From Nocardia vinacea NBRC 16497 (GTDB lineage: Bacteria > Actinomycetota > Actinomycetes > Mycobacteriales > Mycobacteriaceae): DNA of 64,000 bases. Made by a program: the position numbers and the translations under genes. Numbering within the stretch: position 1 is the stretch's first letter; the number at the start of each line of letters is the position of its first letter. The DNA lies in NCBI RefSeq assembly GCF_000308835.1, contig NZ_BAGN01000109.1, positions 1-64,000 of the forward strand, written 5' to 3'. The notes beneath the pieces were generated by a model, which saw only the letters and a list, made by a program, of their open reading frames with translations, ran no database searches and had not been told where the DNA came from. Positions 14,425 to 56,426 of the stretch are shown here, one piece after another.

Positions 14425-14434
14425 ACCCCTCCTT

Positions 14435-16536: not shown

Positions 16537-16550
16537 CGAACGGAGACATC

Positions 16551-18128: not shown

Positions 18129-18170
18129 CAGGCATCCTTACTCGACGCCGACGAAGGGAACCCCCTTGTT

Positions 18171-19283: not shown

Positions 19284-19290
19284 GAATATA

Positions 19291-20769: not shown

Positions 20770-20794
20770 CCCGTGTCGCAGGAAGAGGTGTCAC

Positions 20795-21946: not shown

Positions 21947-22516
21947 GGACCGAGGGCGTATCGACACTGTTTATTGCGCGAGTCGATCGTGGCGTCCTTG
22001 GTTGCGAGTGCCTGTGGATCGAACAGGATAAGTTCGGCGAAGCGTCTGCAAGGAATGCCGTACAGCGCAGGCTGATTCAACCCGGCGACGATGAAGGGCC
22101 GCACCAGTTCACCCGCCCTGACGTGGATGGTGGTGTGTCGGCTGGTCTTGCTGCATAGCTCGTCCTACCTGTCCGGATTGACCAGCAGATCGGCCGACGA
22201 GCCGATTCGCCGGGGTTGCCTGTGCAACGACGAAACGCGGCAATTCATTCTTCGACATCACTGCGAATCACCAAAATGATGTCACATTCATAGTTGGTCT
22301 ACAGTGCGCAGCTCGTCAAGACTAGGATCAATTTCCTCGGCCGATACGAACATTCAACCTCGCCATGACCGGACTGGATCAGCGCCAACAGAGGCCCATG
22401 AACAGCCAAGCGTCGACGGATGGGGCCGCCCCTGGTCGCGGCGCTCCAACACGCCTCGACGACAAGCACATGCCGATCAGACCTTGACGTAGCCTGGATC
22501 ACGCTGCACCATTATG

Positions 22517-22532
22517 CGACAATTAAGTGTCG
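22517..22532. promoter_or_regulatory. inverted repeat kept in both module copies
   Basis: CGACA-N6-TGTCG, about 95 bp upstream of the binding protein pseudogene. The same arms with a different spacer occur at 33523-33538, so the arms and not the spacer are conserved. An upstream TTGACG is also conserved in both. Confidence 0.45.
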
Positions 22533-22626
22533 ATACCTCGGACACGTGAAGAGTGGACTTCTATTGGGGACATTTCTCTGCCGACGCACACCCCTCGACC
22601 ATCTGGTCAGTTGCAGGAGACGAACG

Positions 22627-23860: not shown

Positions 23861-24097
23861 GGCAGCCCATCGTCTACGCCGAGCACTCGTCGCGTGCGAT
23901 CGCCACGCGATAGTCCGGCTGGTTGTCTACCGCCATATGTCGGACAAAGACCAACGGTTGGCGGATGCAATGAATTCTTATGCAGCCTACGCTGCATTAG
24001 TTGACAGATCAAGGTCAGCCTAATAGATCTCCATAGCCTTCAATTATTCAATAAGTTTCAAACCTAACTTCCAGAATGTCAGACGAAAGGTTCATCA

Positions 24098-25693
24098 ATG
24101 CAAGCGACCGAGCGAATTGAACGTGTCTCATCACATCAGTGGGTCACGATGCCGCCTAATGAGCCCGATCCGCAGGTTCTGCAGCGGTGCACAAAGCACG
24201 CCATCAGCGCCGCCGTCGCCGATCTGGAAGGTGTATCGATCGAGTCGGTGACCATCAACCGGACCGGCCAATACCATGTTCCCCCAAGCCCATTCGGATT
24301 TCCGCAATACGTGGAAGAAAACCTCCCCGACTACTGCGAAGTGCTCGTCCACCAAGCCAACCCCGGCGATCACATCGCAGAGGTCCTGGTGTGGGTACCC
24401 CTGGTATGGAACGGCCGATTCCTCGGAACCGGGGGCGGCGGTAACCGGACCACTTTCGGATTCGTTGAAGGTGACCAACTACGGAATGCGGCAATATCAA
24501 GTGGTCTTCGCAATGGTTTCGCGTCCGCGAGTACCGACGGCGGCTACGGGCACGACCCGCGCTTGGCCGACTGGCAGTTCATCGAGGAAACCAGAGAACA
24601 CGATCGCGAACTGATCGAGAATTGGGTGCACCGCAGCACCCACGAGATGACAATCATCGGCAAAGCAGTTACCGCCGCAATCCACGGAACGGAACCGCGC
24701 TTCTCCTACTTTCAAGGCAGCTCCGGCGGCGGGCGGCAAGCACTCGCCCAAGTCCAACGGTATCCGAACGACTACGACGGCGTCTGGGCGACAGATCCCG
24801 CAATCAACTACAACCGCTTCATCCCCGCCGAACTTTGGCCCGCCCTGGTGATGAAGGAACTCGACAACGCCCTGCCGCCAGCGAAACTCGAGGCATTCCG
24901 CACCGCGGCCGTCGAAGACTTCAACCATCGCAACGGCACCTCGGAACCCTTCACCACCAGCATCGAACCACCCGTCTTCGACGCGAAACGAATCGTCGGA
25001 CAGGCGACCGACGCTGGGGACATCACCGAAGCCGACGCCACGGTCATGAACATGATCTGGGAAGGACCAAAAACCCCCTCCGGCGAGCAACTCTGGTTCG
25101 GACTGCGCCCGGGCGCCGAAACCTGGGGCGAGGTCACCCCCGGTGTCGGACTGTGCGTCACAACCGAAGATGAGGACGGCCGCCGGAAGCCAGATCCGTT
25201 TTTCGTCGTTACGTCGTGGTTCGCCACCTGGCTGCTGCGTGATCCGCAGTGGGACTGGACAACTCTGACCTTCGAGGAGTACGCCCTCCTGTTCAAAAAG
25301 GGGGTCGAGGAATTCGCGGAGGTGGCCGTCGACGACCCGGACCTGACCGGGCTCCGCGACAGCGGAAACAAACTACTCCTCACCCACGGTACCGACGACC
25401 AGGTGATCTTCTCCCAAGGCACAGTTCACTACTTCGATCGCGTACTCGACCGCATGGGCGGCTTCGCCGGCACGCGTAACTTCGCACGGTTCTTCTTCTG
25501 CCTCGGAGACGGGCACAGCGCCCGAATCGAGAAGAACTTCGGCCTCGATCTGGCGACCGGGATGGTCACACTGATGAACTGGGTGGAAAACGGCATCGCA
25601 CCAGACCACCTCGACCTCGTGCACCTCGCGCAAGACAAAGTCACTGTCGACGGCACACGCCGCGTCAGCGCCTACGGAACACCGCGCGATTGA
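24098..25693 (+). CDS. tannase/feruloyl esterase-family hydrolase, copy 1
   Basis: An intact 531-aa protein with GAAAGG seven bases before ATG 24098. It belongs to the tannase/feruloyl esterase family of alpha/beta hydrolases: nucleophile motif GSSGGG with Ser at about 209, an acid in THGTDDQVIFSQGT, and a histidine in GDGHSAR. Family members cleave esters of phenolic acids. No signal peptide is visible, so it acts inside the cell on imported ester. It is closely similar throughout to copy 2 at 35471. Its own binding protein and permease are lost, yet its frame is undamaged, which implies continued selection. Confidence 0.92.
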   Translation: MQATERIERVSSHQWVTMPPNEPDPQVLQRCTKHAISAAVADLEGVSIESVTINRTGQYHVPPSPFGFPQYVEENLPDYCEVLVHQANPGDHIAEVLVWVPLVWNGRFLGTGGGGNRTTFGFVEGDQLRNAAISSGLRNGFASASTDGGYGHDPRLADWQFIEETREHDRELIENWVHRSTHEMTIIGKAVTAAIHGTEPRFSYFQGSSGGGRQALAQVQRYPNDYDGVWATDPAINYNRFIPAELWPALVMKELDNALPPAKLEAFRTAAVEDFNHRNGTSEPFTTSIEPPVFDAKRIVGQATDAGDITEADATVMNMIWEGPKTPSGEQLWFGLRPGAETWGEVTPGVGLCVTTEDEDGRRKPDPFFVVTSWFATWLLRDPQWDWTTLTFEEYALLFKKGVEEFAEVAVDDPDLTGLRDSGNKLLLTHGTDDQVIFSQGTVHYFDRVLDRMGGFAGTRNFARFFFCLGDGHSARIEKNFGLDLATGMVTLMNWVENGIAPDHLDLVHLAQDKVTVDGTRRVSAYGTPRD

Positions 25694-33636: not shown

Positions 33637-34860
33637 ATGAAGTTCCCTAATCACCGGTTTTCCACGATCGTCGCAACGTGCGCACTCGCGTTGTCGGCCG
33701 CCGCTTGCGGCAGCTCGTCCTCGAGCGGCGGAGGATCACCTGGTGAGATCGTCATCGGCAATATCGGCGCATACTCGGGCGCATTCGCATCCACCTCGGG
33801 TTTTGTTCCACAAGTCATCGACGCGTGGGCCGAGTCGGTCAATGCGGCCGGCGGACTGAATGGGCATAAGGTTCGCGTCATCACCAAGGACGTCGGCATG
33901 ACGACCGGAGCCGGCGTAACCGCAGTACAAGAACTCATCAACAAGGAACACGTCACAGCCATCCTCGACTTCGATCCCAGCGACACGACCTGGGTCCGTC
34001 TCGCCGCCGCCAAGTCAGTTCCGGTCATCGCCGCATTCTCGAGTCTCGGCAGCCTGCTGAGCCCTAACGTCTTCTCCATCGTCACGTCGCCGATTGCACT
34101 CGCTTACGGCGCCGCAGCCGAAGCCAGGAAATTGGGCGACAAGATCGGCATTGCGTACGCAGCGGAGTCCGCGGAGGGCGGACAAATCGTTGCGATGATG
34201 CAAACATTCGGCGACGGGCTCGGGCTGACACTGGCAACCGCAGTCAAACTCTCTTCCTCGGCTGCGGACTATACTGTGTTCTGTCAGCAGTTGCGCGACT
34301 CCGGTGCCAATTCCTATTTTCTCGGATTCGCTACCGCGACAGCACAGAAGATCACCGACCAATGCTTCCAACAGGGCGTACGCATACCCCAATTATTGAG
34401 CGGTCCGGTAGCGGTGCCCGCATGGAAGACCGACGCCGCGTACGACGGTAGTCCCGTAATCGACGGCGTCGCACCCTTTTTCGACACATCGGTGCCAGGC
34501 CAGAAAGCCTACCGCGATGCGCTGGGCAAGTACGCTCCAAGCCTTGTCGAGTCCAGCTCGACAGGGACCTTCGTCTGGGCGGCCGCGCAGCTTATCGCCA
34601 CCGTCGTCCCAACAATCAGCACCGAAATTACGCCGGAATCCCTGCAGAACGCCTTGTACAGCGTCAAAGACGAGACACTCGGCGGGCTAGTACCGCCGGT
34701 GACCTTCACCAAAGGTCAAACCTCGACTGTCAACTGCTATTTCGTCTGGAAGGTGTCCGGGGGGAATTACACAGCACCCAACGGAACATCCTCCACCTGC
34801 GCCCCCGCCGCCGCGATCGCCCCCGTCGAAAGTGCAGCGGTCAAAGCCGCCGGTGGTTAA
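33637..34860 (+). CDS. ABC transporter substrate-binding lipoprotein (LIV type)
   Basis: A 407-aa type I periplasmic binding protein. The signal peptide ends in ALSAAAC with lipidation at Cys24, then a serine/glycine linker, then the binding domain (EIVIGNIGAYSGAFASTSGF, VNAAGGLNGHKVRVITKDVG, GVRIPQLLSGPVAVPAW). It delivers ligand to the LivHMG/LivF importer encoded divergently. GCAGGAGG lies before ATG 33637. It has a decayed paralogue at 22627. A pair of strong hairpins follows the stop codon. Confidence 0.94.
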   Translation: MKFPNHRFSTIVATCALALSAAACGSSSSSGGGSPGEIVIGNIGAYSGAFASTSGFVPQVIDAWAESVNAAGGLNGHKVRVITKDVGMTTGAGVTAVQELINKEHVTAILDFDPSDTTWVRLAAAKSVPVIAAFSSLGSLLSPNVFSIVTSPIALAYGAAAEARKLGDKIGIAYAAESAEGGQIVAMMQTFGDGLGLTLATAVKLSSSAADYTVFCQQLRDSGANSYFLGFATATAQKITDQCFQQGVRIPQLLSGPVAVPAWKTDAAYDGSPVIDGVAPFFDTSVPGQKAYRDALGKYAPSLVESSSTGTFVWAAAQLIATVVPTISTEITPESLQNALYSVKDETLGGLVPPVTFTKGQTSTVNCYFVWKVSGGNYTAPNGTSSTCAPAAAIAPVESAAVKAAGG

Positions 34861-34875
34861 CCGATGAGATGCCTG

Positions 34876-34902
34876 TCGTGAGTGTCGCGCCGACACTCAC
34901 GA
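34876..34902 (+). terminator. hairpin after binding protein gene
   Basis: TCGTGAGTGTCG and CGACACTCACGA form a perfect 12-bp stem around CGC, 15 bases after the stop codon. Confidence 0.72.
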
Positions 34903-34928
34903 CCGCCCGATTCAACTCCAGGGTGCAT

Positions 34929-34962
34929 GGCGGTGCGACCGGCTCAGGCCGGTCGCACCGCC
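34929..34962 (+). terminator. second, stronger hairpin
   Basis: GGCGGTGCGACCGGC and GCCGGTCGCACCGCC form a perfect 15-bp stem with loop TCAG. Together with the hairpin at 34876 it should separate the binding protein gene from the esterase gene. Confidence 0.7.
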
Positions 34963-35470
34963 GACGAATCCACTGCCAACTAATCGGCGTCCGCCCACAG
35001 AGCAAGTAGTCCAGCCCGACCACGCCCAGTCAGACACGGAGTCCAACCATGGAGCCGATCGATCATCTGCGCTCGTCGACTCTGAGCGGTCGCCGTTCGA
35101 AAGTACGATCGGTTGTCAACCGCCATCTGGCGGACAACGGCTCACGGTTTGCGGGGTGTGCTCAACGCCCGAACGGCCATACGCTGCAATTGCTGACACG
35201 GTCGCCATCAGACAATAGAGCGCCAATGCCTCCAGAGGTCCAGGAGTTACCGCACCGCCATCGTATTCCGCAGTCACACCGATACAACAGTGCCGACGCA
35301 CTCGGTCGCAGTCCAATGCATCACCAAGGCAACGGAATTCGTGGCAAGGCATCAGCCCGGGACGCGCAGCAACATCGATAAAGCGCCGAGAGGGCGCCGA
35401 ACAATGCAGCGATAGAACGGGCATCCGTCCAACGAAAACGTCTCCAAAATATCTAATGAAGGGCCAACTA
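34963..35470. other. intergenic, no gene recognised
   Basis: No coding signature is visible. A short stretch near 35107 resembles bases near 23920 in the other module copy, so part of it belongs to the duplication. It presumably contains the esterase promoter. Confidence 0.45.
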
Positions 35471-37069
35471 GTGCAATCGACTGAAAAAGTAGAGCGCGTT
35501 GCACGGCATCAGTGGGTCACGATGCCACCGAGCGACCCCGACCCGCAGGTTGTGGAGCAGTGCACGAAGCATGCCATCAGCGCGGCCGTTGCCGATCTGG
35601 AAGGTGTATCGATCGAGTCGGTCACCATCAACCGGACCGGTCAATTCCATACTCCTCCAAGCGTATTCGGATTCCCAGTTTATGTGGAGGAAAATCTCCC
35701 TGACTACTGCGAAGTGCTCGTTCATCAGGCCAGCCCCGGCGGTCATATCGCTGAGGTCCGGGTGTGGGTTCCCTTGGTGTGGAACGGCCGGTTCCTCGGA
35801 ACCGGGGGCGGGGGTAATCGGACCACTTTCGGATTCATACCGGGTGACGACGTACGAAACACAACGTTGCCGAACGCTGTACGTAACGGCTTCGCGGCGG
35901 CAGGTACAGATGGCGGGGTCGGAGGCGACCCACGCCTATGGGATTGGCAGCTCATCGAGGAAACCGGAGAACTCGATGGTGAGCTGATCGAGAACTGGAT
36001 TCACCGCAGCACCCACGAGATGACACTGATCGGCAAGGCCGTCACCACAGCGATCCACGGAACCACACCCCGCTTCTCCTATTTTCAAGGCAGCTCCGGC
36101 GGTGGCCGGCAAGCACTCACGCAAGTTCAGCGGTATCCGAACGACTACGACGGAGTATGGGCAGCTGACCCGGCGATCAATTGGCCTCGCTTCATCCCCG
36201 CAGAGCTGTGGCCGGCTCTGGTAATGAAAGAACTCGACAACGCCCTTGCACCAGCGAAACTCGAAGCATTCCGGACCGCGGCGGTCGAGGATTTCAACCA
36301 GCGCAATGGAACATCAGAACCTTTCATTACCAGCGTCGAACCGCCGACCTTCGACGCGAAGCGACTGGTCGGACAGTCAACTTCTGCCGGGGACATCACC
36401 GAAACCGACGCCGCGGTCATGAACATGATCTGGGAGGGACCGAAAACGCCCTCCGGCGAGCAGCTCTGGTTCGGACTACGCCCCGGCGCAGAAACCTGGG
36501 GCGAGATGATGCCCGGTGTCGGACTGTGCGTCACGGTCGAAGACGACAACGGACAGCGCAAACCCGACCCGTTCTTGGGTGCTCTGGCGTGGTTTGGCAC
36601 CTGGATGCTTCGTGACCCGCAGTGGGACTGGACAACTCTGACGTTCGAAGAGTTCGCCCGTCTGTTCAAAAAAGGAGTCGAGGAGTTCGCGGATACGGCC
36701 ATCGACGACCCCGACCTTATTGGTCTGCGTGACGGCGGTGCCAAGCTGCTCCTCACGCACGGTGCGGACGACCAAGTGATCTTCTCCCAAGGAACAGTTC
36801 ACTACTTCGATCGTGTACTCGACCATATGGGCGGAGTCGCCGGCACAAGTAACTTCGCACGATTCTTCCTCTGCCCCGGCGACGGACACAGCTTCCGACT
36901 CGAGCAGAATTTCGGACTCGATCTGGCAACCGGGATGGTGGCACTGATGAACTGGGTGGAAAACGACATCGCACCCGAAAGCCTCGACCTGCTGCACTAC
37001 GCCGAGGACAAAATCGCCATCGACGGCACACGACAAGTCGACGCATACGCACTACATCCGAGCAAGTGA
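35471..37069 (+). CDS. tannase/feruloyl esterase-family hydrolase, copy 2
   Basis: A protein of about 532 aa. I prefer GTG 35471 to the ATG at 35456 because GAAGGG lies just before the GTG and the N-terminus then aligns with copy 1 (QSTEKVERV against QATERIERV). It has the nucleophile Ser of GSSGGG at about 209, an acid in THGADDQVIFSQGT and a histidine in GDGHSFR. It is cytoplasmic by lack of signal. It probably hydrolyses an ester imported by the adjacent ABC system to give a phenolic acid and an alcohol. The exact ester is unknown. Confidence 0.92.
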   Translation: MQSTEKVERVARHQWVTMPPSDPDPQVVEQCTKHAISAAVADLEGVSIESVTINRTGQFHTPPSVFGFPVYVEENLPDYCEVLVHQASPGGHIAEVRVWVPLVWNGRFLGTGGGGNRTTFGFIPGDDVRNTTLPNAVRNGFAAAGTDGGVGGDPRLWDWQLIEETGELDGELIENWIHRSTHEMTLIGKAVTTAIHGTTPRFSYFQGSSGGGRQALTQVQRYPNDYDGVWAADPAINWPRFIPAELWPALVMKELDNALAPAKLEAFRTAAVEDFNQRNGTSEPFITSVEPPTFDAKRLVGQSTSAGDITETDAAVMNMIWEGPKTPSGEQLWFGLRPGAETWGEMMPGVGLCVTVEDDNGQRKPDPFLGALAWFGTWMLRDPQWDWTTLTFEEFARLFKKGVEEFADTAIDDPDLIGLRDGGAKLLLTHGADDQVIFSQGTVHYFDRVLDHMGGVAGTSNFARFFLCPGDGHSFRLEQNFGLDLATGMVALMNWVENDIAPESLDLLHYAEDKIAIDGTRQVDAYALHPSK

Positions 37070-45487: not shown

Positions 45488-46585
45488 ATGACCGAATCCC
45501 CCATTGCCCGCATATGCCACACGTTCGCCGCGAACATGCTCTACGGCCAAGACATTTCAGCCACGAATGAGCGACTGCAGGCAGCCGCCGCGCGGTGGGC
45601 GCGCGAATCCGTCCCCATCGACACGATCCACCGTGCCATCCGCGATGGAGTGCAGATCGCCCTCGATCACCGCGCCGCCGAATCCGACGACCGCAGCACA
45701 CAGCAATCGTCGACAACGACTCCGCAGGGCCGCGAAAACCTGCTCGACGAGGCCGAGCTCATCATGAGAGTGATCGACCGCATGAGCTCGGTCATCTCAC
45801 AGGCCTACGTCCGCGAGTTGCGCACAATCGTGGGCGAATACCACGAGGATGTACACAATCTCACCGCGGCACTGCTCGACGGCAGACCGACGTCCACCAT
45901 GGCACGAGAATGCGGAATCGAAATCGCCCAGTCGTATTCTATTCTCGCACTATCGATTCCGAGACACCATGATGAGCGCGATGCCGCATTGGACGGCAGG
46001 GAGATGAAACATCGAAGGCTCCGCCGAATCCGCTCCGAACTGATCACCCGATGTGGGGAAACCGCACTCGTGCTGTGGAATTCGATGGGCGGTACCGCGC
46101 TCGTCCCCGATACCCAACCTGCTGCCGGTGGCCTGGACGAGTTGGTGCGGCACCTGTCCCGGGCCGCCGAGATACCCATTACCGCCACCGTCACCGCCGC
46201 TGCCCCACCGGACCTGCCGAGCGCCGCGTCCCAAGCTCACGAATTGCTCGATATGGTTGTGCGCATGGGCTGTACGCCCGGACTGTATCGCTTCGACGAC
46301 CTCGTTCTCGAGTACCAGCTCACCCGTCCCGGGCCCGGGCGCGAGTACCTCGGCTCACTGCTCGACTCACTGGATGAGCATCCGGAACTGCTGGAAACCC
46401 TCGAACGGCACATCGCGAACGACCTCAATCGCCAGCGCACCGCTCACAGCCTGCACGTCCACGCCAACACCGTCGACTACCGCCTCAGACGGATCGGTCG
46501 GCTCACCGGTTTCGACCCGACGCAGGTATCCGGCCTGTGGTATTTGCGCTCGGCCCTACTTGCCCGGTCCTATCGGATCACCTGA
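45488..46585 (+). CDS. CdaR/PucR-type transcriptional regulator, paralogue 1
   Basis: A 365-aa protein; ATG 45488 follows AAGGAG at seven bases. The N-terminal third is helical and resembles sensory domains of actinobacterial CdaR-like proteins. A central GGDEF-like/CdaR domain contains GGTALVPDTQ. The C-terminus is the PucR/CdaR helix-turn-helix (HVHANTVDYRLRRIGRLTGF) preceded by LYRFDDLVLEYQL. It stands just beyond the tatC end of the Tat operon, convergent with it by 26 bp. A paralogue at 50913 flanks the other end, and a third begins at 63526. Confidence 0.9.
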   Translation: MTESPIARICHTFAANMLYGQDISATNERLQAAAARWARESVPIDTIHRAIRDGVQIALDHRAAESDDRSTQQSSTTTPQGRENLLDEAELIMRVIDRMSSVISQAYVRELRTIVGEYHEDVHNLTAALLDGRPTSTMARECGIEIAQSYSILALSIPRHHDERDAALDGREMKHRRLRRIRSELITRCGETALVLWNSMGGTALVPDTQPAAGGLDELVRHLSRAAEIPITATVTAAAPPDLPSAASQAHELLDMVVRMGCTPGLYRFDDLVLEYQLTRPGPGREYLGSLLDSLDEHPELLETLERHIANDLNRQRTAHSLHVHANTVDYRLRRIGRLTGFDPTQVSGLWYLRSALLARSYRIT

Positions 46586-46611: not shown

Positions 46612-47538
46612 TTATCGGCCAATGGCGTGCCTATTTTCGCCGATCCGCTCGGACTGCAGGATGGGCTCAGGTGCGGCAATCGAACCGGCCTCGTCATCAG
46701 GTAATGCGGCGAGCGTAATCGCTGCGCGCAGAGCCCGACGCTTATCGCTGATCCGCACGATCTGAACCGCGCATTCGAACAGGATCGTGAGCGCTGCGGC
46801 CAGGGCCATCATCGAGAACGGGTCCTGTGGGGTCACGATGGCCGCGAATACGAAGAGCCCGAAGATCAACCCGCGCCGCCAAGCCCTGAGCTTCGCATAG
46901 GGCAGCACCCCGATGAGATTCAAACCCACGATCAGCGCAGGGGTTTCGAAGCTCACACCGAAGATGACCAACAGCCGAACCAGGAATCCGAAGTACTGTG
47001 CACCACTCAGCGCAGTGATCTGAACGTTGTCGCCGACGGAGAGCAGGAAGCCGAGTGCATGGGCGACAACTACATACGCCAATACCGCACCGGTGGAGAA
47101 AAGTATGCTCCCGCAGCTCACGAACCCGATGGCGTACCTGCGCTCCTTGACGAGGAGCCCGGGCGTGATGAACGCCCACAGCTGATACAGCCAGACCGGT
47201 ACGGCGAGCACGATGCCCGCGGTAAGGGCGACCTGAAGCCGGAGCATGAACTGCTCGAATGGCGCGGTGGCCAGCAGCCGGCAAGAGCCATCGGCGGCAA
47301 GTGCGGCACGCGCGTCCGGCGGCAACGCACAGTACGGACCCCGAAGGATACCGCCGAGGCTCTCGATTCCCAGGAACGAGTGTGAGTACCAGAGGAAGCC
47401 GATCACAGTGGTTATCGCGATAGCGCCGAGCGACTTCAGTAGCCGATTCCGCAATTCTTCCAAGTGCTCGATCAGCGACATGGCGCCGTCGGGATTCCGC
47501 CGCTGCGCCTTACGCCGAATATCGAATGGGATTCGCAT
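46612..47538 (-). CDS. tatC: twin-arginine translocase subunit TatC
   Basis: A 308-aa six-helix membrane protein that receives twin-arginine signal peptides. Conserved features are [17 protein letters not shown] with the signal-binding glutamates, the first periplasmic loop ending in [33 protein letters not shown] with the second conserved Glu, and [13 protein letters not shown]. The loop after the first helix is longer than usual and holds two cysteines. The tail after residue 265 is long and polar. It is encoded with TatA, an SSI-like protein and a Tat-signal flavoprotein. Because actinobacteria have a housekeeping tatC elsewhere, this is probably an extra copy (inference). Confidence 0.94.
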
Positions 47539-47565
47539 ATGACCACCCCGGTGTCGAAAGTCGCG

Positions 47566-47605
47566 CTCGGCGACCGTGTGTCAGGAGCTCGCCTCGGTCG
47601 CCGAG
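47566..47605. terminator. hairpin between SSI-like gene and tatC
   Basis: CTCGGCGACCG (47566-47576) and CGGTCGCCGAG (47595-47605) form a perfect 11-bp stem with an 18-base loop, just upstream of tatC. It may weaken read-through from the upstream genes. Confidence 0.5.
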
Positions 47606-47638
47606 CATCAGTGCCATGAGTAATGGAGAACTTGCGAA

Positions 47639-47697
47639 CGCCCTCGCGCTACTATCCGCCTCGGCATTCGGAGAATCGGCGTACTAGCGCGAGGGCG
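47639..47697. terminator. long-loop inverted repeat after SSI-like gene
   Basis: CGCCCTCGCGCTA (47639-47651) and TAGCGCGAGGGCG (47685-47697) are perfectly complementary 13-base arms around 33 bases. They begin 10 bases after the stop of the SSI-like gene on the minus strand. Confidence 0.5.
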
Positions 47698-47707
47698 ATG
47701 ACGGGCA

Positions 47708-48406
47708 TCAGAACCTGTATACGGCCTTCGCCGACTTCTCGAGCGCGCACCAGTTCGGGAATTCATGCGCGTACAACACGTCCGCGCCGTTCCAGACGCC
47801 CGACACCAGCAGCGTCACTTTCTGGTCTCCACCCGAGCACGAGGCGGAATCATCAGCCGTCAGTTTCGCGAAATCGCCACCAGCAGTGGCCAATTCGGAA
47901 CATGCCTCCTGGGCTTTCGGGTGGGTGTTGCCCTCCGTCGGCTGGCACGCCAATGTCGCCGATCGAACCTCGGGCTTTTCGCCCTCCGAGATCGCGGCCA
48001 GCATAACCATGGAGTCCCCTGTCAACGCGGGCGGAGCCGTGGTGGGTTGCGGGGCGGACGTGGTCGGGTCGCCAGAGGTGGGCGGTACCACCGAGGTGGA
48101 CGGAACCTCGGTCGGAGACGGCTCGACCGATGTCGAGGGCGTCGTCGACGGAGTGGAAGTCTCCGACGATGGCGGGACGCTGGACGACGGCGGTGCCTCA
48201 GTCGAGGTAGACGGGGCCGAGGTGCTCGGCTCCGTCGATGTGGGCGGCGCTTCCTGGGGAGGCGTGACCTGTACCGATGTGGTCGGCGAGCTGCTCGTCG
48301 TCGGAGCCGGCTCGGTGTCCGACGGGGCGGCATTGGCCGACACACCGACCAGCCATGAAGAACCCACCAGCACGGCGACACCCGCGACTCGTGCTAATTT
48401 GGACAT
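47708..48406 (-). CDS. secreted protein with Ser/Thr/Pro-rich linker and subtilisin-inhibitor-like (SSI) domain
   Basis: A 232-aa protein. The signal peptide is ARVAGVAVLVGSSWLVGVSA with cleavage after ANA. Residues 27-130 are a Pro/Ser/Thr-rich stalk. Residues 131-232 form an SSI-like (I16) domain: cysteines at 154 and 169 and at 190 and 220 have exactly the 15 and 30 residue spacings of Streptomyces subtilisin inhibitor, and it ends AVYRF. The position equivalent to the P1 residue, two after the third cysteine, is Gly192 instead of the usual Met, Lys or Leu. It may therefore not be a classical protease inhibitor. It lies between tatA and tatC. Confidence 0.85.
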   Translation of the reverse strand: MSKLARVAGVAVLVGSSWLVGVSANAAPSDTEPAPTTSSSPTTSVQVTPPQEAPPTSTEPSTSAPSTSTEAPPSSSVPPSSETSTPSTTPSTSVEPSPTEVPSTSVVPPTSGDPTTSAPQPTTAPPALTGDSMVMLAAISEGEKPEVRSATLACQPTEGNTHPKAQEACSELATAGGDFAKLTADDSASCSGGDQKVTLLVSGVWNGADVLYAHEFPNWCALEKSAKAVYRF

Positions 48407-48457
48407 AGCGAAACCTTCCTGTGTTACCTGAAATTTGAAATCGGCCGTCCGTCTGCG

Positions 48458-48730
48458 CTATGCGCTCGCGACACGGCGAGGCTCTGGACTCATCCGTCCC
48501 GCCCCGTCGCTCTCCGGCCGCACGACCGCCACCGCGGCCACCGAATTCTCCGATTCGGTTGGCGCCTTTGATATTCCGTCGCCATCCGAGTGCAACTCGC
48601 GCATCTCGCTCTTGAAGATGCGCAATGAACGTCCCATGCTCCGTGCGGCATCCGGCAATCGCCGGGCGCCGAACAGAATTACGAAAGCTCCCACGATTAT
48701 CAGCCAGTGGGTGGGGCTCAAAGTTCCCAT
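48458..48730 (-). CDS. tatA: twin-arginine translocase subunit TatA
   Basis: A 90-aa protein with GGAG seven bases before ATG 48730. A single N-terminal membrane helix ([17 protein letters not shown]) is followed by the hinge and amphipathic helix [20 protein letters not shown], the TatA signature, then a polar tail. It forms the translocation pore with TatC. It is located 74 bp after the flavoprotein gene and 51 bp before the SSI-like gene on the same strand. Confidence 0.95.
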
Positions 48731-48804
48731 GCGAGGACTCCGTTTCTGCGAGAGGTACGGGCGGCCCGGGTTGCCGGAAACCGGGCCACCTGCCGGAAGT
48801 GGGG

Positions 48805-50571
48805 TCAGTTGTCGAACAGATTCTTCTGACCGTTACGCCAACGCGTTTCGTCCAGCGCCCGCAGCCCGTCGAATTCGCTAATGGTCACGTGCGGCCAGAG
48901 CTTGGCCTTGCTCGCCGTGGACCCGGACGCGTCGAGGATGGCGTTCGCGGCATTGCGACCGCCCTCGCAGGCGCCCTCCATAGTGGCGAGGTCGATATTG
49001 CTCTGGCAGAAGTCCCCCGCGAGGAACAGATTCGGGATCTTCGTCACCGAGGTGGGACGGTTGCCCCAGGACTTCGCGGTGTTGATCATCAACGGATCGT
49101 CGTTGGTGTTCGCGCTGCCGTCCCATTTGATGCCCGGGTCGAGGTGCCAATACACCAGATCGCTCTCCTTGACGGTATCGAGCGTCTTGGTGACCTGATG
49201 CCAGCTCTCCCGTGCGACTTCTTCCGGGCTGCAGTCCTTCGCCGCCTTCTTGATCAGTTCGCCCGGGGTGTGCCAGTCCGAGATGTCCACGGACAGAATT
49301 TCTTTGGCTTTCCCATCACCGAAGTCACGGGAGATGTTGTAGGGCTTCCAGTGCTGTCCCTGCTGGATACCGGTGAGCCGCCAAGGGGATTCGATCCAGC
49401 CGATGTGGCCGGGCGCGAGTTGCTTGTCGGTGTTCACAAAGAACTGGATGCCGGTCATCCAGTCCACGAACAGGTCCTTGATCTTGGCCAGACCGGGATC
49501 GGCGTTGTAGATGTCCGGCGTGCAGATGTTGCTCACCTGCTCGGGCGCAACCGCGGTGACGAACCAGTCCGCCTCGATCGTCGAGGTCGCCCCATTCTGA
49601 TCCTGCACCGTCGCGGACTTGATCTTGCCGCCCTCCATATTGAGCGACTGGATCGTGAATCCGAGCTGGAAGTCGACATTCTGCGACTTCAGGTAGTTCA
49701 TCCACGGATCGATCCACCGCTCGTTCGTCGGTCCGTTCAACAGATTGTCGGTTTCGCGGCCGTCATTGTTGCGGTTGAGGATGTTGAGCAGGAAGTTCTC
49801 AGCCTGCGTGCACATGGTGCGGCTGCTGGCGATCTCCTCCTTGGCGGCGACCAGCGTGCGCGTCAGGGTCGAGATGAGCAGCATGTATTGGGGGTTGGAA
49901 TTCGGGGTGACCTTCGCGAAGTCCAAGAACGATGTCTGCTCCCACTGCCCGATGCGGCGAGCATCACAGCTTGTGAAGTAAACGAACAAGCGATTGGCGA
50001 AGGTGAGCAGGTCCGAGTAGGGAAGCTTCGGAATCCATTGCGCCGCCCCGGCCAAGGTCTTGATGATCCACTTGAGATCGATTGCCGCGCCGATCTGGTC
50101 GGGTTGGATACCGAACGGCAGGGTGATATCCGCGCCCGACTGCGCCGCCGTGAGCGTCGGCGCGCTCGTCAGGTTGTCGTACACCCCATTCGCATTGCCC
50201 GGGAACGGGATACGTTTCATCGTGTCTGGCACTGCCTGGTAGTAGCCGGGGAAGAAGCGGAATCCGTGCTCACCGGGTAGCGGCCTGCGACCATCGGCAA
50301 CGGGCAGCGCGGAATCCATGCTCCGCGCTTTGCCGCCCCAGGCACGCTTCTCGAAAACCGTTACCTTGAAGCCGCGTTCGGCCAATTCATGGGCCGTGGT
50401 CAGACCGGCGACACCGCCGCCGACCACCACGACTCGATTCTGCGCCGGCGCCGAGCGCGCCGGACCGATTCCTACCAGACCGCTACTTGTCGCGGTCGCG
50501 GCAGCTAGTGCAATGGATCCCGCAGCAGCACCCTTCAAAACGGTGCGGCGGGACAGGTCGGACTCCACCAT
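48805..50571 (-). CDS. Tat-exported FAD-dependent oxidoreductase (phytoene desaturase/amine oxidase fold)
   Basis: A 588-aa protein. The N-terminus is a twin-arginine signal ([20 protein letters not shown], Arg8-Arg9) with predicted cleavage near residue 42. The mature part begins with the FAD motif [20 protein letters not shown] and [18 protein letters not shown], typical of carotenoid-desaturase-like and hydroxysqualene-dehydroxylase-like flavoproteins. Near the C-terminus [20 protein letters not shown] completes the FAD site. FAD-loaded, folded enzymes need the Tat route. The next genes downstream are tatA and tatC, so this is the likely dedicated cargo. The substrate is unknown; a lipid, sterol or amine in the envelope is possible. 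Confidence 0.92.
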
Positions 50572-50912
50572 GGGATCACGTCCTCATCGACAGCAGGCCA
50601 GCGGTCGAGTGGATGTCACTCTAAGCACTTCCATGCGGCAAGGTCAACTGTGTACCCGATATTGATGCTTTGTCGCATCAGCGCTATCGTTGTCCCTCAC
50701 CCGATGTCGTCATCCGAGGACGGTCACAGCTGGCTACTGATCGACGAACAACCCGTGGTCACCCGCGCGGCTTGAATCGTAATCCTTTGCACCACAAGTG
50801 ATTTCGAAACAGCTTCCGCCACGAACTCGGTACGTCACACCGAGCACTTCGAACGATCACTCGAAACGACACCGGCGCACGACGCGATCCGCAGATCGAA
50901 TGGAGCACATCG
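50572..50912. promoter_or_regulatory. divergent promoter region of the Tat locus
   Basis: 341 bp between the flavoprotein (-) and the CdaR-type regulator (+). It contains TGATGC-TTTGTC-GCATCA (50663-50680), a perfect inverted repeat about 92 bp upstream of the flavoprotein start. No gene is seen. Confidence 0.5.
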
Positions 50913-52181
50913 ATGTCCGTCACCGCCGACGTCACCGCCGAAGCCGATGTCCCGCCCCTCCGCCGCCCCACAACGACCGGTTCGAGCAGTGGCCGAATCG
51001 CGCCGCGCCCACAAAACACACCCCGCGTCGGGCAGGCGGGGGCTCACCGGAACAACGACGAAGGCAACGAATTCCGAATGCTTACCCAGCGATGCGGAGA
51101 AGTCATCTCGATCGCACTCGGCGCGCAGAGTGACACAACCGAGTTGTCACAATTACGCCAGATGGCACAATCCCTGACCCGCCGAGGTTGTTCCCTTGCC
51201 GCGATCAACCGCGCCGTCCGAACCGCTTTCGATGATGCCTTCGGTCGAATTGCTCAGAAATCCACCCGTACCACCCCGACCGATATCGCGGCCACGCTGT
51301 GCCGGCTGCGCGAGATACACGAGACGATCACCTGCGCGGTCTCCTCAGCGGTCGTCGATGTGATCTGCGGTAGCTTGGCCGGCGAAAATCTCGATCGCAT
51401 CGGCGAGCCGAGAAATGCCGCGCCGAAAATCACCGTTGCGCCCACCGAGGACAGAGCGCCGAGCATGGAGATCACTTCTCCGACCGCTTCCCACGTGGTG
51501 TTGGCCCTCGCTATCCCACAGCACATCGACGAGCAGGATCCGGAACACGATCGAAAACTGGCCGGGCAGCGCAAACTTCATCGCGTACAGGCCCTGCTAC
51601 GCGAGCGATTGGAACCCACCGCCAGAATAGCGTTGAGTCCACGCGGTGGAACAATCGTGCTACCCGCCCATACTGTCACGGAAAGCAGCCTCGACGAACT
51701 CGTCAGTCGGCTGTCGTGGGCCGCACAGGTGCCCGTTACAGCGATAACGCTCAGGGGATCGGGCGCATGGGTTCGAAGACTTTCCGACCTGGCCCATGAC
51801 TTGCTGAACGTCGCACAGGGCCTCGGGTTCGCGGGCGGCTTATACCGTTTTCCCGACCTCGCTCTCGAATATCAGCTGACCCGCCCCACCCCGGCCCGCG
51901 AAAAACTCGCCCACGCGCTCGATCCGCTCGACGACCACCCGGAGCTGCTGCACACATTGACTCTGTATATCCACACGAATATGACTCGCCGGATCACCGC
52001 ACGGTTGTTGAACCTTCACCGCAACACCATCGATTACCGATTGAATCGTATCGAGGAACTCACCGGATACGACCCCTCCATCCCTTCCGGGATTTGGTAT
52101 CTGCGTTGTGCACTGGTCGTGCGCACCTATCGGAAGTCCGCGGGCGACGCACCGGCGATCGGCCTCGAGATCACGGCGTAA
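50913..52181 (+). CDS. CdaR/PucR-type transcriptional regulator, paralogue 2
   Basis: A 422-aa protein; ATG 50913 follows GGAG at eight bases. After a low-complexity N-terminal extension of about 50 residues come a helical domain, a central domain (RIALSPRGGTIVLPAHTV) and the C-terminal HTH (LNLHRNTIDYRLNRIEELTG) with LYRFPDLALEYQLTRPTPAR before it. It aligns with the regulator at 45488 along the C-terminal half. Divergent from the flavoprotein-tatA-tatC operon, it is the best candidate for its activator or repressor. Confidence 0.9.
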   Translation: MSVTADVTAEADVPPLRRPTTTGSSSGRIAPRPQNTPRVGQAGAHRNNDEGNEFRMLTQRCGEVISIALGAQSDTTELSQLRQMAQSLTRRGCSLAAINRAVRTAFDDAFGRIAQKSTRTTPTDIAATLCRLREIHETITCAVSSAVVDVICGSLAGENLDRIGEPRNAAPKITVAPTEDRAPSMEITSPTASHVVLALAIPQHIDEQDPEHDRKLAGQRKLHRVQALLRERLEPTARIALSPRGGTIVLPAHTVTESSLDELVSRLSWAAQVPVTAITLRGSGAWVRRLSDLAHDLLNVAQGLGFAGGLYRFPDLALEYQLTRPTPAREKLAHALDPLDDHPELLHTLTLYIHTNMTRRITARLLNLHRNTIDYRLNRIEELTGYDPSIPSGIWYLRCALVVRTYRKSAGDAPAIGLEITA

Positions 52182-52226
52182 AACCCGCTGAACTCGCACG
52201 ACGACCCATAGCCGCACAATACGAAT

Positions 52227-52265
52227 GAGGGGCGCGGCCAGGATATTCTCCTGGCCGCGCCCCTC
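52227..52265 (+). terminator. strong terminator after CdaR-type gene
   Basis: GAGGGGCGCGGCCAGGA and TCCTGGCCGCGCCCCTC form a perfect 17-bp stem with loop TATTC, followed by GTTTTCC. It starts 45 bases after the stop codon. Confidence 0.85.
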
Positions 52266-52329
52266 GTTTTCCTCGAAAGCGAAAAGCAGCACGCCCGGGA
52301 GAATAATTGACGTGATACGATATCGGATA

Positions 52330-52415
52330 GCTCGCTCGGCGACCCGACCGTTGGCCTGCGTTTCATATGGTTTGGAATCGCCGAGCGAGCCGTGACACCG
52401 AATGCGTCACGGCTC
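52330..52415. repeat. two adjacent inverted repeats, possible structured leader
   Basis: GCTCGCTCGGCGA (52330-52342) pairs with TCGCCGAGCGAGC (52378-52390). GAGCCGTGAC (52387-52396) pairs with GTCACGGCTC (52406-52415). The second arm of the first overlaps the first arm of the second by four bases, so the two structures are mutually exclusive in part. No gene is present between 52182 and 52712. Confidence 0.5.
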
Positions 52416-52712
52416 AAACGATATCCGTACCGGCTCCTTCGGTAACCAATTATCGGTAACGATGGATATCTGACGATCCTTTTAATCCTTCATTACGTCG
52501 ATATCACAACAAGGTCACGCGACCATGAAACCGGGGCAAGTCCCGCCTTCGCCGGCGACCATGTTCACTTGCACTACCCCGGATCGACGATGGCTGTGAC
52601 GTATCAAAACGAAGGATCGATATCTGAACTGCTCCCGCGCCCACCCTTATCGTCTGTAGTGGCGCAGTTGCTTCACGACTGACGCTTCGATACAAGTGCA
52701 AAGGAGCATGGC

Positions 52713-52955
52713 ATGACGGGATCGGGACGCCCCGCGCACGATCGGTGCGGATACCAGGAAACTCCGACTCGCCGCATTGTCATCTATTTCGAAGGTGTCG
52801 GCCGCGGTAGCGATCTCGCTCTGGAGTACGCGGCGACATTCGTGGAAGCCTGCGAATTCGCGGCAGCGGCGCTGCGAAGCGGGTTAGCGGTCACCGTCGA
52901 CCGAAAGTTGCGGCCCGACCTGCGCCCACTGCCATGCCGCGGACTTTGGGGGTGA
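52713..52955 (+). CDS. 80-aa protein of unknown function coupled to TatB
   Basis: ATG 52713 has AAAGGAG nine bases upstream, and the stop (TGA 52953-52955) is only three bases before the TTG start of the TatB-like gene, so the two are translationally coupled. The protein has no signal peptide or membrane helix; it reads RRIVIYFEGVGRGSDLALEY then AATFVEACEFAAAALRSGLA, perhaps one strand and one long helix. I do not recognise the family. Its position suggests a Tat-associated factor or simply a leader cistron. Confidence 0.65.
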   Translation: MTGSGRPAHDRCGYQETPTRRIVIYFEGVGRGSDLALEYAATFVEACEFAAAALRSGLAVTVDRKLRPDLRPLPCRGLWG

Positions 52956-52958
52956 CCT

Positions 52959-53399
52959 TTGTTAGGTATCGGCTGGGCGGAGATGATCGTACTTCTCGCG
53001 GCGGCATTGGTAATCCTGGGACCAGAACGGCTGCCCGGAGCAATCCGCTGGACGACGGGCGCAATGCGGCGAATACGAGAATATGCCGACGAGGCCACCG
53101 GGCAAGTGCGTCAGGAATTCGGAACGGAGTTCGATGAGCTACGCGAACCCCTCCGGAGACTCGACGAACTGCGCGCGATGACACCTCGATCGGCGCTCAC
53201 GAAGTTTCTGCTCGACGGCGATGATTCGGTACTGACCGGAAAATTCGAGGGCGTGTCGGAGCCGACAACGCCGCATCTCACACCCGAAGACATTGCGCCG
53301 CATCTCCCGAATCCCGGTCCCGCCACAAATTGTGGATCCTTCGATGCGATCAGACCGCACGGCGAGACGGTGCCGCCGATCGATCCGGACGCCACGTGA
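52959..53399 (+). CDS. tatB: TatB-like Sec-independent translocase subunit
   Basis: A 146-aa protein starting at TTG 52959. The first residues [20 protein letters not shown] and [11 protein letters not shown] are the TatB membrane helix and hinge (the Glu in the helix and the GPE motif favour TatB over TatA). A long amphipathic helix follows ([20 protein letters not shown]), then an acidic, proline-rich tail. It partners TatC in signal peptide recognition. Together with tatA and tatC at 46.6-48.7 kb it completes a three-component system in one locus. Confidence 0.9.
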
Positions 53400-53535: not shown

Positions 53536-54204
53536 ATGGTCCGTGATCACAAGGATGTCCATGACAAGCTCGGCGAACGAATACTCGACGCGGCCCTCGC
53601 GCGTATTCTGCACGTCGGCATCCGGCGGGCCAGCCTCGACGACATCGCCCGTCGCGCGCAGGTCAACCGGGTCACCATCTATCGCAGGTTCACCAGCAAG
53701 GAGAACCTGATCGACGCGGTGCTGTCGCGAGAGATCGCACGGATCCTGGCCCAGGTCGCCGAAATCGTCTCCACCACAACAGGAATCGATACACAGATAG
53801 AGCTGACAGTCATGTTCGTGCTCCAGCAGACCCGGACCCACCCGTTGGTGCCCTTCCTACTCGAATCGACCTCCGATGAAATCGTGGGCTTCTACACGAT
53901 TCGTGGACGGGAGATGGTTTCGTTCGGTATCCACTCGATCACCCAGCTACTCGACCGCGCCCAGGAGGTCGGCGCCATCGACCGCTACGATCCCGTGCCG
54001 GTCGCGGAGTTACTCGCACGGTTCGCGCATTCGGTCTTGCTGACTCCCGACGGCGGTGTCGATTTCGGGATCGAAGAGCAGATGCGCGATTTCGTCCGTA
54101 CGGCCGTGGTACCACTCGTGAAATACGGCGTACCCATCCACTCGATGGAGCACGAGCACGCCGACCGCCATGCCACACCACCATCACCCCACCGCACACT
54201 CTAG
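53536..54204 (+). CDS. TetR-family regulator, paralogue a
   Basis: A 222-aa protein. The HTH reads LHVGIRRASLDDIARRAQVN then RVTIYRRFTSKENLIDAVLS. It is closely related along its length to the regulator at 62661-63329 (for example IYRRF, THPLV, ESYDPVPVAELIARLAHS against DRYDPVPVAELLARFAHS). Its start region TTTGATACATG is identical to that of the paralogue. It is convergent with the ligase fusion gene, with two bases between the stop codons. It probably regulates part of the 54-62 kb gene set. Confidence 0.92.
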   Translation: MVRDHKDVHDKLGERILDAALARILHVGIRRASLDDIARRAQVNRVTIYRRFTSKENLIDAVLSREIARILAQVAEIVSTTTGIDTQIELTVMFVLQQTRTHPLVPFLLESTSDEIVGFYTIRGREMVSFGIHSITQLLDRAQEVGAIDRYDPVPVAELLARFAHSVLLTPDGGVDFGIEEQMRDFVRTAVVPLVKYGVPIHSMEHEHADRHATPPSPHRTL

Positions 54205-54206: not shown

Positions 54207-56279
54207 TCACGGAGCCTGCGGGCTAGTCGGGTCGGGGGCGACAAGGAACCGTTTGATGATCTTTCCGGTTTCACCTCGTGGCAGCGATGGCAGGAACGAA
54301 ACATCACGCGGCACTGCGACACGGCCGAGCCGGTTTCGGATGTAGTCGCGCACCATTTGCGAATCCAGACCCGCCCCTTCACGTTTGACGACAAACGCGA
54401 CTACCCGCTGACCGAATTCAGGGTCGGCGACACCGACCACGGCAGCCTCACGCACCTGTGGCAGATGCTCCAACGCCTCCTCCACCGGCCGCGGGAACAG
54501 CTTCTCCCCGCCGGAGATGATCATCTCGTCACCCCGACCGTCGATGAACAACCGACCTGCGGCATCGATATAGCCGACATCCCCGGTGTCGAGCATGCCG
54601 TTGGCCTCCGTCGGCGGGGCGGCGTTGACATAGCCGTCGAACAGCATGTGGTTTCCGACGAATATGCGGCCGGTCGTACCGATCGCCACCGGGCGCAGGT
54701 CCGGTCCGAGCACGGCTACTCGCGTACCTGCCGGCGGTCGGCCCACCGTGGCCGGTGCGGCCCGCAGATCCTCCGGCGTCGCGATCGTCGCCCACGACAC
54801 CTCTGTGGACCCGTAGACGTTGTAGAGAATGTCGCCGAAGGCATCGATGAATCGCAGCACCGCGGCACCTGGCAAGGGCGCGCCACCGCAGGCCACGACG
54901 CGCAGCGTCGAGGTGTCGTAACGGGCGCGCACCGCGGCAGGCAGGTCGAGAATCCGCTGCAACATGGTCGGGACGACGACCAGGGCGTCGATGCGATGTT
55001 CGGCGATCAGTCGCAGACACTGCTCGGCGTCGAACCGCTCCTCGAGCACCACAGTGGCACGCAGTGCGGTACTCAGCTGCAGCATGCCCAGCCCCCAGGT
55101 GTGAAACAGCGGAGAAGCGATCAATATCTTCTCCTCCATCCGCAGCGGAATCCGCGCCAGCACCGCGGCAACCGGGTCCAGGCTCTCGAGATGTGGTCGG
55201 CGGGCGCCCTTGGGCATTCCACTGGTGCCGGATGTGAGCACTATGAGCCGCCCCGGGTGGGTAGCGCGCGCGGCTCTTCCCGGCGAGAGCACGACCAGAT
55301 CCTCGATGGTCGTCCGCTCCGGCGAGGGCGGCCGAGCGTCGGTGGTGAAGCGGCAGATTCCCGGATGTAGGTAGCGGACCAGCGATTCGAGCTCACCGTC
55401 TACGAATAGCGCCGAAAGCCGTTCGCGCTGGGCGATATCCTCGAGCTGGCGACCGGACAGTCCCGCATTGAGCAATATCAGGTCGAGTCCGACCTTTCCG
55501 GCTGCCACCATCGTTTCCAGCATCCCGGCGTGATTGCGGGCCAGCAGACCGGCGCTGTGCTGACCGCGGAGCCCGAGCGCGGTCAACGCCCGAGCGAACG
55601 CATCGCTGCGGCTGTGCACCTCGGCAAAGGTTCGCTGTCCCGAGTTGTCGATGACGGCAACACGTTCCGGCGTACAGGCCGCGGCCGCGGCGTAGCCGCC
55701 CGCCAGACTGAGCCCCCACTTCGCGAGACCGGCCATCTGTTTCAGGCCGTGGTCGGGCCGACGCGGCCGGATCACCCCCGTCGACACCAGCTGCCGAACC
55801 ACGCCGAGCTGCCGGATAACCGGGGTGGCGGCGCTGTCGCTCAATACCGCGTTGGGTGTGGCGGCGCAGCGCTCGACGATACGTTGCAGTCCCGCTCGCA
55901 GCCATGCGACCACCGCCGAGTTGGGTGCGGCCGCCACGACCGGATGGACACGACCAGGCGAGAGGAATGTGACGGTCACCCGCGTCCGGTCCTGCTTGGT
56001 GCGCAATCGAACCGAGGCCAAACTCCCCGATGCGGGACAATACAATTCGAAACCGTCGTACCAGCGCCCCACGATCAACTGCACCCGAACAACGCTGACG
56101 CCGGTATGCACGGTTCCTACCCGGAACAGCAAGGTCGGGGTCGAGTCGCTCTGCAAGAATTCGCAGCCGCCGATCCCGGCAAACAGCCGTAGATAGGTTC
56201 GCGGGTCGATGAGCGCCGCCCACATCGCGTGGCGGCCGATCGACACATCCTGGGTCGATTCGATGATGTCGGTAACCAC
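54207..56279 (-). CDS. SRPBCC domain-acyl-CoA synthetase fusion
   Basis: A protein of about 690 aa. GTG 56279, eight bases after GGAGG, is preferred; the frame extends to 56324 without a ribosome site. Residues 1-150 resemble an SRPBCC (START-like) domain: TDIIESTQDVSIGRHAMWAA then the beta-rich segment around GRWYDGFELYCPASG. Residues of about 195-690 form an AMP-forming ligase with LTSGTSGMPKGARR, VYGSTEVSWATIATP, DTGDVGYIDAAGRLFIDGRG and the lysine motif PRGETGKIIKRFL. It activates a fatty or other hydrophobic acid. The N-terminal pocket may deliver or retain the ligand. Last gene of a four-gene minus-strand operon. Confidence 0.92.
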   Translation of the reverse strand: MVTDIIESTQDVSIGRHAMWAALIDPRTYLRLFAGIGGCEFLQSDSTPTLLFRVGTVHTGVSVVRVQLIVGRWYDGFELYCPASGSLASVRLRTKQDRTRVTVTFLSPGRVHPVVAAAPNSAVVAWLRAGLQRIVERCAATPNAVLSDSAATPVIRQLGVVRQLVSTGVIRPRRPDHGLKQMAGLAKWGLSLAGGYAAAAACTPERVAVIDNSGQRTFAEVHSRSDAFARALTALGLRGQHSAGLLARNHAGMLETMVAAGKVGLDLILLNAGLSGRQLEDIAQRERLSALFVDGELESLVRYLHPGICRFTTDARPPSPERTTIEDLVVLSPGRAARATHPGRLIVLTSGTSGMPKGARRPHLESLDPVAAVLARIPLRMEEKILIASPLFHTWGLGMLQLSTALRATVVLEERFDAEQCLRLIAEHRIDALVVVPTMLQRILDLPAAVRARYDTSTLRVVACGGAPLPGAAVLRFIDAFGDILYNVYGSTEVSWATIATPEDLRAAPATVGRPPAGTRVAVLGPDLRPVAIGTTGRIFVGNHMLFDGYVNAAPPTEANGMLDTGDVGYIDAAGRLFIDGRGDEMIISGGEKLFPRPVEEALEHLPQVREAAVVGVADPEFGQRVVAFVVKREGAGLDSQMVRDYIRNRLGRVAVPRDVSFLPSLPRGETGKIIKRFLVAPDPTSPQAP

Positions 56280-56426
56280 GTACCCGCCCTCCGATCGGCC
56301 GGCACCACTGCCGCGCGACATCACCGAACGCTAGGGCGGCACCGGCCGGGTCACGACGAAATCCGATGCGGCTGGACAGGACACAGCGTCGACCCAGCAC
56401 CCGCTAGTGGATCGTCACTGTCGCGT

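Follow-up and report, generated by a model that had tools for sequence, protein, structure and literature searches.

Does a bacterium keep a second protein export line for one enzyme? The question is raised by a locus of Nocardia vinacea NBRC 16497 (RefSeq assembly GCF_000308835.1, contig NZ_BAGN01000109.1, positions 1 to 64,000; this 64,000-nucleotide stretch is called the window below), where paralogues of the twin-arginine translocation (Tat) genes tatC, tatA and tatB lie close to a gene for a Tat-signal flavin adenine dinucleotide (FAD) oxidoreductase. We consider it rather probable that the locus encodes an accessory, regulated and cargo-linked Tat translocase (TatA2, TatB2 and TatC2) that would mainly export the co-encoded flavoprotein. 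That this Tat set might serve the flavoprotein exclusively is plausible.

The locus

The genes listed by a first-pass annotation of the window (tatC, tatA, tatB, the Tat-signal FAD oxidoreductase, a subtilisin-inhibitor-like (SSI) protein and an 80-aa open reading frame (ORF)) are indeed there as intact ORFs. The features are the following.

45488-46585, plus strand: CdaR/PucR-type regulator (left); PF13556 61.2 bits in a scan from 45491; by coordinates 26 bp separate it from the tatC stop
46612-47538, minus strand: accessory tatC (TatC2), full length; TIGR00945 219.5 bits, cut-off 132.7
47152-47154, minus strand: codon 129 (Leu) of the accessory TatC; alignment with E. coli TatC and column comparison put it opposite E. 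coli Tyr100
47708-48406, minus strand: secreted protein with a C-terminal SSI domain; PF00720 74.4 bits; hydrophobic N-terminal signal judged by eye
48458-48730, minus strand: accessory tatA (TatA2); TIGR01411 57.0 bits, cut-off 53.9; TatA model NF001854 90.4 bits
48805-50571, minus strand: Tat-signal FAD oxidoreductase of amine-oxidase/phytoene-desaturase fold (PF01593; model and fold search), likely cargo
50515-50553, minus strand: twin-arginine motif and KGAAAGS block of the cargo signal peptide
50913-52181, plus strand: CdaR/PucR-type regulator (right); PF13556 60.9 bits
52713-52955, plus strand: 80-aa ORF of unknown family, ending 3 nt before tatB; 61% homologue at L118:7831-8067, within the accessory tatC locus of genome G132
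52959-53399, plus strand: accessory tatB (TatB2), TTG start; TIGR01410 73.6 bits, cut-off 56.5
53536-54204, plus strand: TetR regulator (PF00440) of a subfamily (FAM 3) recurring in related loci, as seen in fetched loci of 10 genomes
54207-56324, minus strand: acyl-CoA ligase (FadD12-like), a recurrent neighbour and not a Tat part

The three tat paralogues are intact and pass the curated NCBI cut-offs; the Pfam score of the window TatB is 18.1, below the Pfam cut-off of 21. The core is a one-strand run on the minus strand, flavoprotein-tatA-SSI-tatC, whose genes are, by coordinates, about 75, 50 and 170 bp apart. CdaR (50913-52181), the 80-aa ORF, tatB and the TetR gene follow one another on the plus strand. 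The left and right CdaR/PucR proteins share 36% identity across 362 aa. The two paralogous regulators were initially described as bracketing the whole set, but they enclose only the flavoprotein-tatA-SSI-tatC run, with the 80-aa ORF and tatB outside on the other strand. Likewise the range first given to the locus, 46612-53399, contains the right regulator but not the left one, which lies to its left.

A separate housekeeping Tat set in the same genome

The first-pass annotation read the window genes as an additional set of Tat genes accompanying a Tat-signal flavoprotein, and this is what the genome bears out. Searching it at E 0.001 gave two TatC loci and recovered the window TatA (the window TatB surfaced only at a looser threshold), and a housekeeping set was found elsewhere: tatA-tatC followed by a DSHCT helicase gene on contig C301, and a trypsin-like PDZ protease gene followed by tatB on contig C234. 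These genes rule out that the window holds the only Tat genes of the genome, which had been named as one outcome that would overturn the idea. Between window and housekeeping paralogues the identity is 69% for TatC, 45% for TatA and 50% for TatB, and the 69% rules out TatC2 as a recent copy of the resident TatC. The subunits of the two sets are homologous, but the neighbours of the housekeeping genes are the helicase and the protease, not CdaR and flavoprotein; no CdaR or flavoprotein relative is present in the 16-19 kb fetched around the C301 and C234 loci.

Linkage of flavoprotein and tat genes across the genus

We compared 148 genomes of the genus (G000 being that of the window). Some relative of the flavoprotein occurs in 147 of them and a close one (55-62% identical) in nine, namely G000, G003, G034, G040, G074, G108, G124, G132 and G137, with two in G124. 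In seven of these nine (G000, G003, G034, G040, G108, G124, G132) an accessory tatA and/or tatB lies within about 1.3 kb of the close flavoprotein. The order flavoprotein-tatA-tatC is common to the window, where the SSI gene intervenes, and G003, where it does not, and the accessory tatC adjoins the flavoprotein-tatA pair in these two genomes. The gap between flavoprotein and tatA is about 70-191 bp in four genomes by coordinates. The flavoprotein tree, made from 38 distinct sequences of 39 rows, places the close ones in one group of 11 with a Shimodaira-Hasegawa-like branch support (SH-aLRT) of 100; seven of the 11 are tat-linked, and the linkage requires at least two changes on the tree. At 80 named flavoprotein loci, some of which are short stretches, tblastn found tatA near the flavoprotein in two, N. 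arizonensis and N. takedensis, the same as G034 and G124. The association of flavoprotein and tat has a Fisher p of 2e-6 with 17 genomes having any accessory tat gene (own list, without G030 and G136), a value that is too small as close relatives are counted separately.

An accessory TatC was found in eight of the 148 genomes (G000, G003, G034, G114, G122, G124, G128, G132). Dropped from this count were G032, with two near-identical housekeeping-type copies in an assembly 85% complete and 5% contaminated, G072 (frame-split), a fragment in G128, and matches below cut-off (a third one in G003, and those of G004, G014, G097, G104 and G140). The distant TatC of G030 and G136 were counted apart, and weak TatB copies may be missed in some of the genus searches.

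The flavoprotein and its signal peptide

A stretch of 19 residues at the N-terminus of the flavoprotein is a twin-arginine signal, and a scan of the called window genes yielded the flavoprotein as the only convincing twin-arginine protein. KGAAAGS follows the twin arginines in all seven tat-linked flavoproteins, and is found in one of four unlinked clade members and in none of 28 rows outside the clade (27 distinct). The second close flavoprotein of G124 (contig C27, L112:8913-10715) keeps KGAAAGS and has no twin arginine there, which is either a real loss or a wrong start.

The AlphaFold model of the flavoprotein has a predicted local distance difference test (pLDDT) score of 82. Its best fold match is rice phytoene desaturase (5mog; E 7e-22, template modelling (TM) score 0.80 by target length and 0.64 by query length), followed by other amine-oxidase-type flavoenzymes and oleate hydratases. 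As modelled, the protein belongs to the phytoene-desaturase/amine-oxidase fold, a match that does not imply a substrate class; that the substrate is an isoprenoid or lipid is our guess. Identity with the hydroxysqualene dehydroxylase HpnE was rejected: TIGR03467 is the best NCBIfam model but scores 92.7 bits against a cut-off of 283.

The place of a signal-contacting E. coli tyrosine is changed in most accessory TatCs

According to an E. coli core-complex paper (2026), TatC residues H12, E15, F94, Y100 and E103 contact the signal, with Y100 packing on the second arginine (PMC13323110). By alignment these correspond to H25, E28, F123, L129 and E132 of the window TatC. The equivalents of H12, E15, F94 and E103 are retained in all eight accessory TatCs. 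Seven of the eight have another residue at the Tyr100 place (Leu in G000 and G132, Arg in G003 and G124, His in G128, G114 and G122; G034 keeps Tyr), compared to two of 64 distinct housekeeping TatCs (both His and both from other genera; 62 have Tyr). A slightly smaller housekeeping set gave Tyr in 51/51 sequences of the genus and 9/11 of other genera. Outside the N-terminal tail this place is the most changed of the housekeeping-invariant columns. The p value for the tyrosine change, 2e-7, is too small since close relatives are included.

Alanine at Y100 is reported to be harmful to E. coli TatC, and Y100C is not among the inactivating changes that the accessible text of one screen gives (PMC3712464). 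Because two housekeeping TatCs naturally have His, the tyrosine is not strictly defining and can be replaced without a known functional change.

Evidence against dedicated export, and the dosage and decay alternatives

Several observations weigh against a translocase dedicated to the flavoprotein. The first-pass annotation had proposed examining the conservation of the gene set across Nocardia: the linkage holds in the seven of nine genomes given above, but no tat genes are seen in the 20 kb around the close flavoprotein of G074 and G137, nor beside that of N. brevicatena or the second copy of G124 in the stretches fetched. Among the named flavoprotein loci, the 76 more distant ones gave no tat match. 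Conversely, a close flavoprotein is present in only five of the eight genomes with an accessory TatC, being absent from G114, G122 and G128. The KGAAAGS block tracks the flavoprotein phylogeny and is confounded with descent, so it is not independent evidence. A single clade of all eight accessory TatCs is weakly rejected (approximately unbiased (AU) test, p 0.0365); we therefore do not claim one system by descent, and the tyrosine change may have arisen more than once. The TatB tree is poorly resolved (4/23 inner branches starred) and TatA was judged too short for a tree.

The accessory TatCs also deviate at 11-30 of 166 housekeeping-invariant columns compared to 0-9 for housekeeping ones, so that general fast evolution forms part of the TatC signal; their long branches could mean relaxed selection, and the accessory TatC of G122 has Gln for the otherwise kept Glu198. 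Taken to the extreme, these deviations would make the accessory genes decaying duplicates without function. We regard this as highly improbable: the three window ORFs are intact and above the curated TatA/B/C cut-offs, the His, Glu, Phe and Glu of the signal-binding site are retained in 8/8, and the linkage persists though the flavoproteins are just 55-62% identical.

Neither is the set complete beside every close flavoprotein. The locus had been called self-contained, which does not hold across the genus. In G034 and G124 the accessory tatC is on another contig, beside an acyl-CoA dehydrogenase gene and a tatB that is either divergent or convergent. That of G132 shares a chromosome with the flavoprotein but at a distance of 600 kb. 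G108 and G040 have tatA2/tatB2 by the flavoprotein and no second tatC was found in them, so with a single TatC their TatA2/TatB2 would need the housekeeping TatC as partner. Five further genomes (G078, G102, G133, G035, G002) have a lone TatA-type gene beside a CdaR gene (L154, L155, L156, L157, L308) and a single TatC match each.

All three patterns would be expected if the accessory genes served dosage and not specificity, the extra subunits raising Tat capacity during bulk flavoprotein synthesis, mixing with the housekeeping ones and carrying any Tat substrate. A mere increase of capacity accords less well with a TatC2 that is 69% identical to the resident TatC and not a recent copy, and with the change of the second-arginine contact residue in seven of eight accessory TatCs. 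We consider the dosage explanation unlikely, though a serious contender to the cargo-linked translocase that we favour.

Regulators near the accessory loci

A homologue of the window CdaR proteins lies within 1.5 kb at 10 of 22 accessory tat loci (13/22 within 3 kb) and at none of 70 housekeeping tatC loci. The 70 loci contain seven repeats of a place, leaving 63 distinct places of which 11 are in other genera. The comparison is restricted to 1.5 kb because the housekeeping loci span about 3.7 kb and the accessory ones mostly 15-20 kb. The Fisher p of 9e-8 (70 housekeeping loci) or 2e-7 (63) overstates the CdaR linkage, as some of the 22 loci come from close relatives (G078/G102/G133/G035/G002; G108/G040; G114/G128) or from one and the same genome. 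Nine of the 22 accessory loci have no CdaR within 3 kb, and in six of those the entire fetched stretch of 15-20 kb or more lacks one; the loci lacking any CdaR are L105, L116, L117, L119, L158, L305 and L309, and one is found at 6-7 kb in L106 and L107. PucR-type helix-turn-helix proteins are numerous, with 8-35 per genome in 14 genomes.

For the named flavoprotein loci, CdaR occurs in the fetched stretch of one of 80, and that locus is tat-linked. The CdaR linkage thus follows tat more than the flavoprotein. Such a pattern would suit a hitch-hiking explanation in which tat, flavoprotein and acyl-CoA genes share a catabolic island regulated by CdaR/TetR while the true cargo is another secreted protein. 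So would the position of the accessory set beside lcp or other genes in other genomes, and the guanine-cytosine (GC) content of the window, evenly 62.4% compared to 65.5-66.0% in three other loci of the same genome; this lower GC is a hint that the window is possibly a transferred segment. Hitch-hiking seems to us quite improbable nonetheless, given the short flavoprotein-tatA gaps (about 70-191 bp) in four genomes and, apart from the flavoprotein, the lack of a convincing twin-arginine signal in the called window genes.

Other candidate cargo types beside accessory tat genes

In two genomes lacking the close flavoprotein, the accessory tat genes stand beside the gene of a rubber oxygenase, Lcp. 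The order is lcp, TetR, tatA, tatC in G114 (L121:6269-12304) and G128 (L119:5495-9550); CdaR and tatB come after tatC in G114, and in G128 a CdaR-tatB pair is on another contig. In its N-terminus the tat-linked Lcp has the twin arginine (NRRDALKAGG); against the Streptomyces K30 rubber oxygenase it scores 414 bits. Lcp matches are widespread in the genus (127/148 genomes), and this particular type (81-100% identical) is found in five genomes, G114, G128, G124, G046 and G006, being tat-linked in two. Of seven Lcp loci annotated, two have tatA-tatC adjacent and a third has accessory tatA/tatB about 11 kb off (G128 contig C4); no tat genes were seen in the remaining four, of which one is on a contig of 5.9 kb. 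These Lcp loci resemble the window in having a Tat-signal oxidoreductase beside accessory tatA-tatC, whereas N. vinacea itself has no Lcp match at E 1e-40.

The accessory TatCs of G114 and G128 are 98% identical to each other. Nearly the same lcp (97-99% identical to that of G128) occurs in G124 and G046 with no tat genes in the 5.9 kb and 20 kb fetched there, as would fit a recent move.

In G030 and G136 the extra TatC is much more divergent (36% and 31%), and next to it is a Tat-signal protein carrying an intradiol dioxygenase domain. These distinct tatA-tatC sets (G136 L123:8199-10142, G030 L159:9735-11756) give the genus another kind of Tat set linked to a cargo.

We tentatively hypothesize, as a possibility that we hold with some doubt, that Nocardia has repeatedly evolved orthogonal Tat translocases. 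These would have TatCs without the second-arginine tyrosine, the loss of which may have happened repeatedly, and each would be adapted to the signal peptide of a single extracellular oxidoreductase, either a phytoene-desaturase-like flavoprotein or a rubber oxygenase. They would be switched on by CdaR and run as inducible lines alongside the general one.

Comparison with known Tat systems

The first-pass annotation did not recognise the set as a described system, which is correct in part. A 2013 survey counts 39 species with multiple tatC genes, including five actinobacteria but not Nocardia, and describes the Bacillus TatAdCd-PhoD arrangement, a second Tat set with its cargo gene alongside whose specificity is experimental (PMC3827258). 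As with TatAd-TatCd/PhoD of Bacillus subtilis, the window has a second Tat set with an adjoining cargo gene in a genome that has another set. The Bacillus sets consist of TatA-TatC only, whereas the Nocardia set includes TatB; it differs further in its cargo (a flavoprotein), its regulators (CdaR, TetR) and the changed tyrosine place, and its specificity is putative. Second sets are known in actinobacteria as well: Corynebacterium variabile has tatC1/tatC2 and four TatA-family genes, and Streptomyces has tat paralogues (PMC3219685, PMC5001237, PMC3827258). The extra tat genes are alike, but no linked cargo or regulator is named in the accessible parts of these sources. In Pseudomonas putida, which has two TatCs, attempts at a double mutant failed (PMC6839425). 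We found no description of a cargo-linked Tat set in actinobacteria in the literature searched (top-ranked results, most subscription papers being outside the scope). The best reading is that the Tat set is conserved and cargo-linked and would be an actinobacterial variant of the Bacillus TatAdCd-PhoD arrangement.

From what is known of Tat export, the flavoprotein would fold and bind FAD in the cytoplasm, TatC2/TatB2 would read a 13-residue stretch of its signal, and the protein would leave through TatA2. The CdaR/PucR and TetR regulators would probably induce the set in response to a substrate of lipid or isoprenoid type. Once exported, the flavoprotein may desaturate or dehydrogenate this substrate, and the product may be taken up by the neighbouring FadD, acyl-CoA dehydrogenase and FMO-like enzymes. 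Most bacteria run one Tat set for many substrates; with a general TatC and a diverged TatC by a candidate cargo, and a structurally defined contact residue that is changed recurrently, specificity is directly testable by swapping residues and signals. Such sets could supply export lines for extracellular redox enzymes, including rubber oxygenase.

Neighbouring genes

The 80-aa ORF is preceded by a Shine-Dalgarno-like AAGGAG and is unlikely to be spurious because G132 has a 61% homologue of it in its accessory tatC locus. Weak likenesses to it (E 0.008 and 0.02) were seen in the lcp loci L285 and L295. The Pfam SSI domain is present in the neighbouring gene of G003; the SSI protein was rejected as a general part of the set, the domain not being found in the SSI-like ORFs of G034 and G124.

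Families recurring in the neighbourhoods are FadD, FMO-like proteins, acyl-CoA dehydrogenase, PF00756 esterases (which we take to be of Ag85 type) and MPAB_Lcp-like proteins. The MPAB/Lcp-like proteins (FAM 7) were set aside as further cargo, with no signal peptide visible at the called starts.

Elsewhere in the window, positions 7548-25693 and 33637-37069 contain molybdenum hydroxylase subunits with CoxG and XdhC-like genes. The same regions encode two tannase/feruloyl-esterase-type proteins and periplasmic binding proteins, giving this lower-GC contig a catabolic content.

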